Of a stretch of 57,459 nt of DNA, positions 14,509 to 26,545 are shown piece by piece. This DNA comes from Sphingomonadaceae bacterium (lineage in GTDB: Bacteria; Pseudomonadota; Alphaproteobacteria; Sphingomonadales; Sphingomonadaceae): positions 16,036 through 73,494 of the forward strand of contig JAKFUU010000023.1 of assembly GCA_021732525.1 (NCBI GenBank), read 5' to 3'. The notes beneath the pieces are model-generated. The model was not told the origin of the DNA. It did not search any database and saw only the letters and a program-made list of their open reading frames with translations. How positions within the stretch are numbered: the stretch's first letter is position 1; every line of letters starts with the position of its first letter. Both the position numbers and the translations under genes were made by a program.

Positions 14509-14598
14509 TGGCGGACACGGTGGGATTCGAACCCACGATAGAGTCTCCCCTATACACACTTTCCAGGCGTGCGCCTTCGACCACTCGGCCACGTGTCC
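14509..14598 (-). tRNA. tRNA-Ser (GGA)
   Basis: Reading the minus strand, the acceptor arm GGACACG pairs with CGTGTCC, the discriminator base is G and CCA is encoded. The anticodon stem CACGC/GTGTG encloses the loop CTGGAAA with anticodon GGA. There is a long variable arm as expected for class II tRNA-Ser, and the T-loop GTTCGAATC is canonical. It is 90 nt long and lies about 90 bp upstream of the LapG-like gene on the same strand. Confidence 0.95.
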
Positions 14599-20818: not shown

Positions 20819-21562
20819 TCATGCCAATTTATGCGCCCAGATTAGAAATTCGACATTGCCTTGCGGGCCGGTGATCGGGCTGGTGGTAAGACCCTGCACG
20901 CGCCAGCCGTTATCCTCCAGCCATGCGCGCACATCATCGCACACGCGGCTATGGACCGCGCCGTCGCGCACCACGCCGCCCTTGCCCACCTCTTCGCGGC
21001 CCGCCTCAAATTGCGGCTTAATCAGCGCGATCAGCGCCGCGCCCGCTTTCGCAAAGCCAATCGGCCGTGCGAGCACTTTGGCAAGGCCGATGAAGCTGGC
21101 ATCGCACACGATCATGTCAACCGGTTCGGGAATATGCTGCGCGGTCAGGATACGCGCGCTGGTTTGCTCATGCACAATCACGCGGGCGTCATCGCGCAAT
21201 TTCCACGCCAGTTGATTGGTGCCGCTGTCCACCGCATACACCCGCGCCGCGCCGTGCGTTAACAGCACATCGGTGAAGCCGCCGGTCGAACTGCCCACAT
21301 CGATTGCGGTCATCCCCGCCACGTCAACGGCAAATTCATGCAGCGCATGGGCCAGCTTTATCCCGCCGCGCGAAACCCAGGGGTGATCGCGGCCGGTGAG
21401 GCTCAGCGGCGTATCGCTCGCTATTTGCTGGCCTGCTTTATCCGCTTTTTTGTCGCCGATCATCACCTGCCCCGCCATCACCAGCGCCTGCGCCCGCGCG
21501 CGGCTTTCGGCAAAGCCGGCTTCGACAAGCAATATATCCACGCGGGTCTTCTTTTGCGCCAT
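20819..21562 (-). CDS. tlyA: TlyA-family rRNA 2'-O-methyltransferase
   Basis: 247 residues. An N-terminal S4 RNA-binding domain (RVDILLVEAGFAESRARAQA...GQVMIGDKKADK) is joined to an FtsJ/RrmJ-like methyltransferase domain with SAM motif AIDVGSSTGGFTDVLL, acidic DMIVCDASFIG and the KPQFE motif. Mycobacterial and Campylobacter TlyA methylate the ribose of 16S/23S cytidines. The name hemolysin attached to this family is historical and the sequence shows no pore-forming features. Monocistronic, converging with the acyl-CoA ligase. Confidence 0.92.
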   Translation of the reverse strand: MAQKKTRVDILLVEAGFAESRARAQALVMAGQVMIGDKKADKAGQQIASDTPLSLTGRDHPWVSRGGIKLAHALHEFAVDVAGMTAIDVGSSTGGFTDVLLTHGAARVYAVDSGTNQLAWKLRDDARVIVHEQTSARILTAQHIPEPVDMIVCDASFIGLAKVLARPIGFAKAGAALIALIKPQFEAGREEVGKGGVVRDGAVHSRVCDDVRAWLEDNGWRVQGLTTSPITGPQGNVEFLIWAHKLA

Positions 21563-22266: not shown

Positions 22267-22373
22267 CGCTCCAAAAAAATAAAATTACAAGTCTTGTTTT
22301 ACTGGCGGGATTGATTCACATCTGGAGTCGCGGAGGGCAAGCCAATGCATATAGCTAATTTTCTTATTTTATC

Positions 22374-22388
22374 GAAAGGAGGTGATCC
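22374..22388 (+). promoter_or_regulatory. Extended perfect Shine-Dalgarno sequence
   Basis: GAAAGGAGGTGATCC is the exact complement of the conserved 16S rRNA 3' end (GGATCACCTCCTTTC), 15 nt without mismatch. Its GGAGG core is 7 nt before the ATG at 22390. Ordinary genes in this window match only 4-7 nt. It decides the start of the 18-codon ORF. Confidence 0.85.
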
Positions 22389-22389
22389 G

Positions 22390-22446
22390 ATGTCTCATGG
22401 TTCAGTTAAGGGGTCGGGCAATTCCGTTCGGGAGATCGGTCGTTAA
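22390..22446 (+). CDS. 18-codon small ORF or leader peptide with very strong RBS
   Basis: ATG at 22390 to TAA at 22444 encodes MSHGSVKGSGNSVREIGR, a hydrophilic, basic, Gly/Ser-rich peptide with no membrane segment. The 15-nt Shine-Dalgarno match at 22374-22388 makes heavy ribosome loading very likely. Immediately downstream (22470-22580) is a compact RNA structure with a T-tract end. It may be a leader peptide controlling that structure, a small protein, or the coding part of a dual-function RNA. I know no family for it. Confidence 0.55.
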   Translation: MSHGSVKGSGNSVREIGR

Positions 22447-22469
22447 CTTTCGCATTTTGCAAGGGTAAC

Positions 22470-22580
22470 GAGGCCGAACCTTCTTCGGCACGCAGCAACT
22501 TCCGGCAGCGGGTGTCTGACCGCTGACCCATGCTTTAACAATTACGGGGTCGCTGGATAGCATCCGGCGGCCTCTTTTCT
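22470..22580 (+). ncRNA. Structured RNA element with terminator-like 3' end
   Basis: An outer helix GAGGCCG (22470-22476) with CGGCCTC (22568-22574) closes a domain and is followed by TTTTCT. Inside are CAGCGG/CCGCTG (22506-22511 with 22520-22525, 8-nt loop) and GACCC/GGGTC (22525-22529 with 22547-22551; the G at 22525 is shared). The 5' strand of the outer helix can instead form the hairpin GCCGAA-CCTTC-TTCGGC (22473-22489), so the two folds exclude each other. Such switching, 24 nt after a strongly translated ORF, is how attenuators work; a stand-alone sRNA is the alternative. No known riboswitch family was recognised. Confidence 0.5.
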
Positions 22581-24707: not shown

Positions 24708-24861
24708 AGGCTGCTGACGTTAAGCCGACTCTCCTCGTCATTGCGAGCGAGGCGCGGCAATCCAGTGTCACCGGCGCACAGTCTGGCCAGTGGCACAGCC
24801 TGGATTGCTTCGTCGCTGCGCTCCTCGCAATGACGGATCAGGCATATGTTATCACGCTCTA
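24705..24861. repeat. Long inverted intergenic repeat, copy 1
   Basis: A palindromic element whose arms read CTCCTCGTCATTGCGAGCGA and, on the far side, TCGCTGCGCTCCTCGCAATGACG. The two arms flank GGCAATCCAG and CCTGGATTGC blocks. A diverged copy lies at 42836-42974, with matching outer parts GACGTTAAG and CATATGT-ATCACGC. This copy fills the gap between converging sppA and prfC exactly, from one TAG stop to the other. Confidence 0.85.
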
Positions 24862-26436
24862 ACGCTCTTTGGTGGCGCTGAATTTCAAATCAGGGTGCTT
24901 TTCCTGTTGATAGCCCACATCCCATGCCGACCGCGCCATGAATACCGGAATCCCGTCGCGATCTTTCGCTATCAGCGCGCTGTTAATATCGGTGAAGGCC
25001 TTGATCTTGGCCTCCTCCCCCATCAACCAGCGGGCGGTGTCATAAGGCGCGGGTTCGAGCGCAGCGGCGACCTTATATTCCGCCTCCAACCGGGAAATCA
25101 ACACGTCAAGCTGCAACTGCCCGACCACGCCGACAATCCACTGCGCGCCAATTTCGGGATAGAATACCTGAATCACACCCTCTTCGGATAGATCATCGAG
25201 CGCTTTGCGCAATTGTTTGGTTTTAGTGGGGTCTTTCAGCACGACGCGGCGCAAAATTTCCGGTGCAAAATTGGGCAGGCCAGTAAAACGCAGCTCATTC
25301 TTCTCGCTCATCGTATCGCCGACGCGGAGCGTGCCGTGGTTGGGAATGCCGATAATGTCACCGGGATAGGCGCTGTCGGCAATTTCCCGGTCCGCCGCGA
25401 AAAACAAGATCGGCGAATGCACCGCAACGGGCTTGCCGTGCCCCGACGGGATCAGCTTCATACCGCGTTTGAAGGTTCCGCTGCATAGCCGCATAAAGGC
25501 GATGCGGTCGCGGTGCATCGGGTCCATATTGGCCTGCACCTTGAAAATAAATCCGGTCACCGGCTTGGCGGCGGGATCGATCACCCCTTGATCCGATGGC
25601 TGCGGGCGGGGCGGCGGGGCGTGGGCGGCAATCGCCGCGATCATTTCGGCAATGCCAAATTCCTTAAGCGCGGAGCCGAAATAAACCGGGGTCAAATCGC
25701 CATTGCGATAAGCGGTCAAATCAAAATCGGCATAGCCCGCGCGGGCGAGTTCCGCCTCTTCGCGAAATTTGGTAAGACCGCGTTCGGACAAATGATCGGC
25801 AAGCGCCGGATCATCCAACCCGCTATAATTGCTGTGCTTGCCCTCAAATTCCTTCGACGCGCCGCTGGGCTGCATCAGCTTATTGCGGGCGAAGTCATAA
25901 ATGCCCTCAAATTCGCCGCCCATGCCAATCGGCCAGCTCATCGGGCAGACATCGAGCGCGAGCTTATCCGCGACCTCATCCAATATCGCGAAGCATTCGC
26001 GGCCCTCGCGGTCGACCTTGTTAACAAAAGTGATGATCGGCACGCTGCGCAGGCGGCACACTTCAAATAGCTTCAGCGTTTGCGGCTCGATCCCCTTGGC
26101 CGCGTCAATCACCATAATCGCGCTATCGACGGCGGTGAGCGTGCGGTAGGTATCTTCGGAAAAATCCTCATGCCCCGGCGTATCGAGCAAGTTAAAGACG
26201 ATGCCGTCCTTTTGGAATGTCATCACCGAACTGGTCACCGAAATGCCGCGTTGCTGCTCAATCTTCATCCAGTCGGACCGCGCCCGCCGCGCCGCCCCGC
26301 GCGCCTTCACCTCACCCGCCAAATGGATCGCCCCGCCTTGCAGCAGCAATTTTTCGGTCAGCGTCGTCTTGCCTGCATCGGGATGCGAGATAATGGCAAA
26401 GGTGCGGCGCGATTGGGTATGGGGGTCGTTGGTCAT
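24859..26436 (-). CDS. prfC: Peptide chain release factor 3
   Basis: 525 residues from the ATG at 26436. RF3 is a GTPase that recycles RF1/RF2 from the ribosome after termination. GTPase motifs are AIISHPDAGKTTLTEKLLLQ (G1), DTPGHEDFSEDTYR (G3) and FVNKVDREGRE (G4). EF-Tu-like domain 2 and the RF3 C-terminal region (EGVIQVFYPEIGAQWIVGVV) follow. The frame can be extended to a GTG at 26460, but those codons lie inside a palindromic repeat, so the shorter start is preferred and fits E. coli RF3 (529). Its TAG stop lies inside the long repeat at 24705-24861. Confidence 0.95.
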   Translation of the reverse strand: MTNDPHTQSRRTFAIISHPDAGKTTLTEKLLLQGGAIHLAGEVKARGAARRARSDWMKIEQQRGISVTSSVMTFQKDGIVFNLLDTPGHEDFSEDTYRTLTAVDSAIMVIDAAKGIEPQTLKLFEVCRLRSVPIITFVNKVDREGRECFAILDEVADKLALDVCPMSWPIGMGGEFEGIYDFARNKLMQPSGASKEFEGKHSNYSGLDDPALADHLSERGLTKFREEAELARAGYADFDLTAYRNGDLTPVYFGSALKEFGIAEMIAAIAAHAPPPRPQPSDQGVIDPAAKPVTGFIFKVQANMDPMHRDRIAFMRLCSGTFKRGMKLIPSGHGKPVAVHSPILFFAADREIADSAYPGDIIGIPNHGTLRVGDTMSEKNELRFTGLPNFAPEILRRVVLKDPTKTKQLRKALDDLSEEGVIQVFYPEIGAQWIVGVVGQLQLDVLISRLEAEYKVAAALEPAPYDTARWLMGEEAKIKAFTDINSALIAKDRDGIPVFMARSAWDVGYQQEKHPDLKFSATKER

Positions 26437-26454
26437 GGTTTTTACTCTAATTTT

Positions 26455-26545
26455 CGTCACCCTGAACTTGTTTCAGGGTCCATCGCTTCACACAAACCGA
26501 AGCAATCGGCTGCGCGATGGATACTGAAACAAGTTCAGCATGACG
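26455..26545. repeat. Paired REP elements in inverted orientation
   Basis: CGTCACCCTGAA-CTTGT-TTCAGGGTC at the left and CTGAA-ACAAG-TTCAG-CATGACG at the right form two hairpins, and CCATCGC/GCGATGG pairs between them, giving one large palindrome. The core matches the element at 15784. It fills the gap between pheT and prfC. Confidence 0.85.

Follow-up and report, generated by a model that had tools for sequence, protein, structure and literature searches.

The window analysed here, a stretch of 57,459 nucleotides from a Sphingomonadaceae bacterium, appears to carry an autonomous RNA of about 250 nt that is homologous to the CC2171 small RNA, in which a mini-ORF would be translated and the loading of a ribosome would gate the fold. 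We hold this reading with a probability of roughly 0.45. At the level of sequence comparison the components of this RNA can be shown, namely a 15-nt pairing with 16S rRNA and its upkeep, a start codon, a short open frame, a helix (P1) and a terminator. The RNA represents a conserved element labelled as non-coding, yet its ribosome-binding match, which precedes a mini-ORF, is among the longest possible. It makes two questions testable, the job of CC2171-type RNAs and the purpose of a Shine-Dalgarno (SD) element that pairs the whole 16S tail.

The 16S-complementary element

The SD element is located at window positions 22374-22388 on the forward strand, with the letters GAAAGGAGGTGATCC, and a single base separates it from the ATG. 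The genome's own 16S gene ends in CTGGATCACCTCCTTTCTAAGG, so that pairing extends over exactly 15 nt (GGAUCACCUCCUUUC), and the element is a perfect complement of the free tail. This tail comes after helix 45, and the match spans all of it. Perfect copies of the 15-mer occur twice in the 3.0-Mb genome, once at this locus and once antisense to the 16S 3' end, and four further places match with 2 mismatches. Within the window, a tolerance of 3 mismatches yields 5 sites where 1.07 are expected, and the SD locus alone is perfect. A comparison set was provided by 41 genes called mechanically in the window, each represented by the best value over its candidate starts. Their longest contiguous 16S match reaches 8 nt at most (median 4) versus 15 nt at the SD, and the best of them forms a duplex of -14.5 kcal/mol versus -28.0 kcal/mol. 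The sequence-only reading had described an 18-codon ORF behind a perfect 15-nt match (22374-22446), and had called the match one that takes in the whole anti-SD and lies far beyond what ordinary genes here use; both descriptions hold. The 15-nt match and the ORF that follows at ideal spacing are confirmed as a real observation.

The pattern formed by SD and start is not a product of chance, since it is conserved. Of 396 genomes of the order, 254 contain the 24-nt form SD-NRTG-TCNCAY, each at a single place among the matches listed, and none of the genomes listed contains its reversed form. Diverged members were searched for in 46 chosen genomes, mostly negative for the pattern, with up to 3 mismatches allowed. 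Fifteen matched, comprising 14 real members and the locus L219, which was rejected because it matches by chance within another gene, and was left out of the counts. The 14-nt motif carries 20 changes in these 14 members. Nineteen of them replace A by G or C by T and keep the pairing with 16S because they give G-U wobbles; the single non-wobble change is C14 to G. A binomial for 19 of 20 at one half gives 4e-5, a figure that is only indicative, as the changes fall into six types often common to related genomes. All 14 keep ATG or GTG as the start codon. The motif was not found, at up to 3 mismatches, in 19 genomes from other families of the order. In the predicted ensemble, the mean unpaired probability is 0.38 for the 15-nt SD, 0.26 for its GGAGG core and 0.30 for the rest of the RNA; these values do not bear out the idea that the fold holds the SD fully single-stranded.

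The frame is kept and the peptide is not

The mini-ORF, MSHGSVKGSGNSVREIGR, runs over 18 codons from ATG to TAA at 22390-22446 on the forward strand. Its start and its short open frame are conserved. A start of ATG or GTG is present in 18 of the 18 class-level matches to SD-NNNN-TCTCAT, a pattern that places no constraint on the four bases. In 173 of 179 unique members, frame 0 reaches its first stop at 16-26 codons; these are made up of 106/106 members with GGT as the fourth codon and 67/73 others; the corresponding counts for frames 1 and 2 are 17/106 and 28/106 in the GGT members, 9/73 and 11/73 in the others. The six exceptions consist of four Azospirillum-type members of 56-59 codons and two of 14 and 33 codons, and three different stop codons close the frame among relatives. 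Loss of the ATG and the frame while the SD stays, which had been named as a result that would speak against the original proposal, was thus not found. The division by GGT is a stand-in for sphingomonads rather than a taxonomic one, and a few sphingomonads are in the other set.

The peptide itself behaves differently, with no sign of purifying selection. The least variable positions in 67 unique 18-codon ORFs are third codon positions, and 25 near-neighbour pairs of these ORFs contain 7 synonymous changes out of 53 against 15.3 expected; a wider GGT set gives 25/128 against 37.6. Members lacking GGT as the fourth codon show 16/42 against 10.5, and 33/109 against 28.4 in wider pairs, and weak selection on the peptide is possible there because synonymous changes slightly exceed expectation. 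Conservation of the peptide as a peptide was therefore dropped as an explanation in GGT members, where the synonymous deficit leaves it unsupported, and is weak elsewhere. The peptide begins with MSHGS in most sphingomonads, yet the codons that stay constant either take part in P1 pairing or lie next to the SD. It contains no run of one amino acid. With the frame kept and the peptide free, this comparative evidence suggests that translating the short frame counts for more than the sequence it encodes.

The fold, helix P1 and the terminator

The predicted fold of the RNA has an energy of -86.3 kcal/mol (z -2.44), and 3 of 200 shuffles folded as well. The 5' strand of P1, CATGGTTCAG, covers codons 3-6 of the mini-ORF (22396-22405, forward strand), and its 3' strand, CTGACCCATG, lies just before the terminator at 22523-22532; the two are paired both in the predicted fold and in the Rfam alignment. 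In 138 of 202 members, the hexamer that starts at codon 3 has its own exact complement further downstream, as compared with 1060 of 23680 comparisons (4.5%) when complements are swapped in from other members. Controls for an earlier count of the same kind ranged from 0/187 to 35/184, with a GC-rich strand giving the highest. For nine types of 5' strand, at least one member carries the strand's own complement when 5 nt are allowed. P1 (CAUGG-UUCAG with CUGA-CCAUG) is invariant in an alignment of 33 sphingomonad sequences, where changes on both sides affect 3 of 26 consensus pairs, so that the support for P1 comes from differences between groups, which have common ancestry. Read in this way, P1 can be shown to covary between groups.

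Directly 3' of P1 is a hairpin (22546-22574) of the intrinsic-terminator type, with a 13-pair stem followed by a T run (TTTT), the whole extending over 22546-22578 on the forward strand. A simple terminator scan is at chance level, as it finds 1.3 such sites on average in shuffled sequence, and the evidence for the terminator is therefore its same location in relatives.

Relation to CC2171 and distribution

The RNA is, judged by its alignment, a diverged and distant homologue of the CC2171 sRNA (Rfam RF01867) that lies below the family's cutoff. The match is full-length, covering model positions 1-159 of 159 at 22366-22574 on the forward strand, and scores 29.7 bits (E 1.9e-4 and 1.1e-4) with a gathering cutoff of 75 bits. 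None of 18 loci of the window's genus reaches the gathering score. Among 17 loci of named species, taken from other orders and from sphingomonads, 10 exceed it. Among ten further loci, nine match at 41.3-69.8 bits, eight of these being sphingomonads; the Azospirillum locus L098 gives no match at E <= 0.01. Some match to the model appears in 6 of 14 control genomes, one of them over the cutoff, and the antisense of the genome's own 16S scores 15.8 bits. Since weak matches to this model are unspecific, the homology rests on the full alignment, the sphingomonad bridge and the shared architecture. The earlier statement that no described family was known has to be revised, with CC2171 aligning over its whole length and sphingomonad members at 41-70 bits linking the two. 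The Rfam cutoff thus misses the sphingomonad branch.

CC2171 and the window RNA share the start AUCGAAAGGAGGUGAUCC-RRUG-UCUCAU, a closing helix behind the start codon and a terminal hairpin; the conserved CC2171 helix, from behind the start codon to the segment before the terminator, is present in the window RNA. Unlike CC2171, the window RNA has a frame of 18 (or 33) codons with GGT as the fourth codon, a longer interior and an in-frame start upstream. Rfam labels CC2171 as an sRNA, and its search output describes no ORF. The CC2171 RNA was reportedly first detected in Caulobacter. A sub-threshold match to another Rfam family, ar14 (49.5 bits, cutoff 58.8), lies at L125:4429-4555, about 2 kb from a CC2171-like RNA. 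One additional covarying pair is entered for CC2171 in Rfam 15, in a table row of PMC11701678, and a table in PMC5596092 contains a Mesorhizobium member as a 215-nt sequencing product.

A 281-base query against 61 genomes found the RNA in its own genome and in 35 of 36 other genomes of the genus, the one genome lacking it being 72% complete, and in 0 of 24 genomes from other families of the order. All 83 listed genomes from seven other families of the order are, by eye, negative for the SD-start pattern. In named species the pattern occurs at no fewer than 120 loci. Of 80 such loci listed, 78 have titles that name alphaproteobacterial taxa and 2 have titles that name only Proteobacteria; the taxa include Sphingomonadales, Caulobacterales, Rhizobiales, Acetobacteraceae, Azospirillum and others. 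An evenly drawn sample of 385 genomes of the class contained the exact form in 18. By these pattern counts the RNA is widespread in the alphaproteobacteria but far from universal, or else often diverged.

The upstream region

A palindrome, ACAAGTCTTGT, is placed at 22287-22297 on the forward strand and overlaps a possible -35 element (CTTGTT, 22293-22298). Upstream of the RNA, the palindrome CAAGNCTTG is present in 29 of 31 unique genus members, 77 of 90 other GGT members and 0 of the 81 remaining, with controls giving 0-1 per set. Further downstream is GATTC (22313-22317, forward strand), a GANTC site within the probable -10 region (GATTCACAT, 22313-22321). GANTC is present between -115 and -20 in 28/31, 71/90 and 38/81 of the same sets, and in control windows further upstream in 0-5 of 31, 5-13 of 85-88 and 2-11 of 73-80. 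The segment 22287-22317 thus holds a conserved palindrome, ACAAGNCTTGT, together with GANTC in the promoter region. GANTC is the established site of CcrM methylation that is read by GcrA, as set out in a passage of PMC5988900, and this genome encodes GcrA (138.8 bits). The arrangement suggests control of the RNA by CcrM and GcrA, whose action here would be through the GANTC sites. A simple sigma-70 promoter scan gave 2 sites against 1.1 expected, which is not above chance; a promoter pattern fits 95 of 117 sequences (shuffles 1.54), a descriptive figure, as the pattern was written after viewing the sequences.

An in-frame ATG at 22345, 45 nt before the start of the mini-ORF and behind GGAGG (22332-22336), opens a possible frame of 33 codons (22345-22446, forward strand). 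This start, open and in frame behind GGAGG, belongs to 30 of 34 genus members; the exceptions are L003, in which the frame is lost, and three with GGAG instead of GGAGG. Outside the genus it was found in 1/93 and 0/82. The extension carries no coding signal, with 5 of 22 changes synonymous against 4.9 expected. The 33-codon ORF may, from its recurrence, be an alternative start in the window's genus. Under that longer reading, the 16S-complementary element would encode KGGDP.

Neighbouring genes

The RNA is surrounded in the window by a lipoprotein-like gene and genes for TlyA, SppA and release factor 3. The rRNA methyltransferase TlyA (20819-21562) and release factor 3 (24859-26460) are within about 2.5 kb of it. 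Inspected by eye, this linkage is not common to orders; a release-factor-3-like gene also adjoins the RNA at L108. The lipoprotein-like gene upstream is common to three sphingomonad loci, and among 19 loci compared by eye no neighbour gene is common to different orders. With its own terminator, and with neighbours that differ between orders, the RNA is to all appearances an autonomous, stand-alone unit. A leader peptide in the classical sense, one of the two options first considered, is for the same reasons unsupported. A tmRNA was also considered and rejected: ARAGORN finds only a tRNA-Ser (GGA) in the window, at 14509-14598 on the reverse strand, and an Rfam search at gathering thresholds finds only that tRNA.

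How the RNA may work, and the alternatives

We propose that a ribosome loads at the SD through pairing with the whole free 16S tail and translates the mini-ORF, and that translation or initiation, rather than the sequence of the peptide, would be what matters. The 5' strand of P1 lies at +7 to +16 from the start codon, inside the expected footprint of an initiating ribosome. With P1 starting 7 nt after the start codon, the usual footprint would make P1 and a loaded ribosome mutually exclusive. P1 would open upon loading and re-form when the ribosome is gone, and the RNA would in this manner switch between two folds. The open fold could make a pairing region accessible to other RNAs, alter the stability of the RNA, or hold the ribosome. 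The likeliest effect of the switch would be regulation in trans.

Several other explanations must be set beside this one. The first, which we regard as rather unlikely, is a small-protein gene, whose strong SD would yield large amounts of a tiny peptide, the product in its own right. A frame that is always open fits this explanation, as do the constancy of MSHGS and the longer frames of Azospirillum and Skermanella, with 27 homologues and deposited hypothetical proteins. The synonymous deficit and quiet third positions of the GGT members speak against it, however, constant codons coincide with P1 pairing or SD adjacency, and the four Azospirillum-type ORFs show no clear excess of synonymous changes in a gap-free comparison. 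An RNA that titrates ribosomes or holds 30S subunits, the other option raised by the sequence-only reading, is in our judgement unlikely. Here the whole-tail duplex would trap small subunits and P1, right behind the start codon, would hinder accommodation. The energy of that duplex, nearly twice that of the best of the 41 genes, and the upkeep of the 16S pairing through wobbles count in favour of a trap; yet a trap has no need of the open frame, which is kept, and it would require very high abundance of the RNA.

Two further explanations are less likely still. The RNA might act in cis on the gene that follows it (sppA in the window), as a leader or attenuator; a terminator hairpin does come after the mini-ORF, with sppA 225 nt further on. 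The downstream genes, however, differ between orders in the 19 loci compared by eye, which is why a leader of sppA was rejected as the main reading. The peptide also lacks a run of one amino acid and no alternative pairing involving the terminator could be shown, and we consider such a leader very improbable. Small RNAs with CCUCC loops occur in alphaproteobacteria, and GGAGG might act as a sponge for them, the 16S match being incidental. This last explanation is the least likely of these, considering that the match takes in the 16S tail over its full 15 nt, on either side of CCUCC as well, and that the element keeps an ideal distance from a conserved start codon and changes through wobbles. 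The preferred reading, ribosome loading that gates the fold of an autonomous RNA, can also be carried further. In this extension, which we hold to be doubtful, a widespread alphaproteobacterial RNA would read the state of the small subunit directly by binding the whole free 16S tail, its fold set by ribosome loading on, and translation of, a mini-ORF whose peptide is of little account, and its timing by CcrM and GcrA, and would couple ribosome supply to the cell cycle.

Comparison with other systems

Among known RNAs, rnTrpL, a dual-function sRNA of Sinorhizobium, likewise combines a short translated frame with a terminator, as presented in part of PMC10117765. However, rnTrpL is leaderless and comes from the trp attenuator, whereas the window RNA has a 15-nt SD, is an independent unit and lacks a run of a single residue. 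Attenuator leaders likewise place a mini-ORF within a structured RNA that ends in an intrinsic terminator; they have a conserved downstream gene, which the window RNA does not have in the 19 loci compared by eye. In Caulobacter, the promoters of several ncRNAs carry GANTC or other cell-cycle sites, according to a section of PMC5988900, and the window RNA resembles these cell-cycle ncRNAs in having GANTC in its promoter region. CcnA, also of Caulobacter, is described in a portion of PMC8959179 as working through a CCCC loop on the ctrA and gcrA leaders.

At four Azospirillum-type loci (L098, L126, L137 and L190), this start site, together with P1, belongs to a longer frame of 56-59 codons. In Azospirillum and Skermanella the frame has 56-60 aa and its N-terminus is, by eye, hydrophobic and signal-like, and of its 27 homologues in protein collections some are deposited as hypothetical protein.
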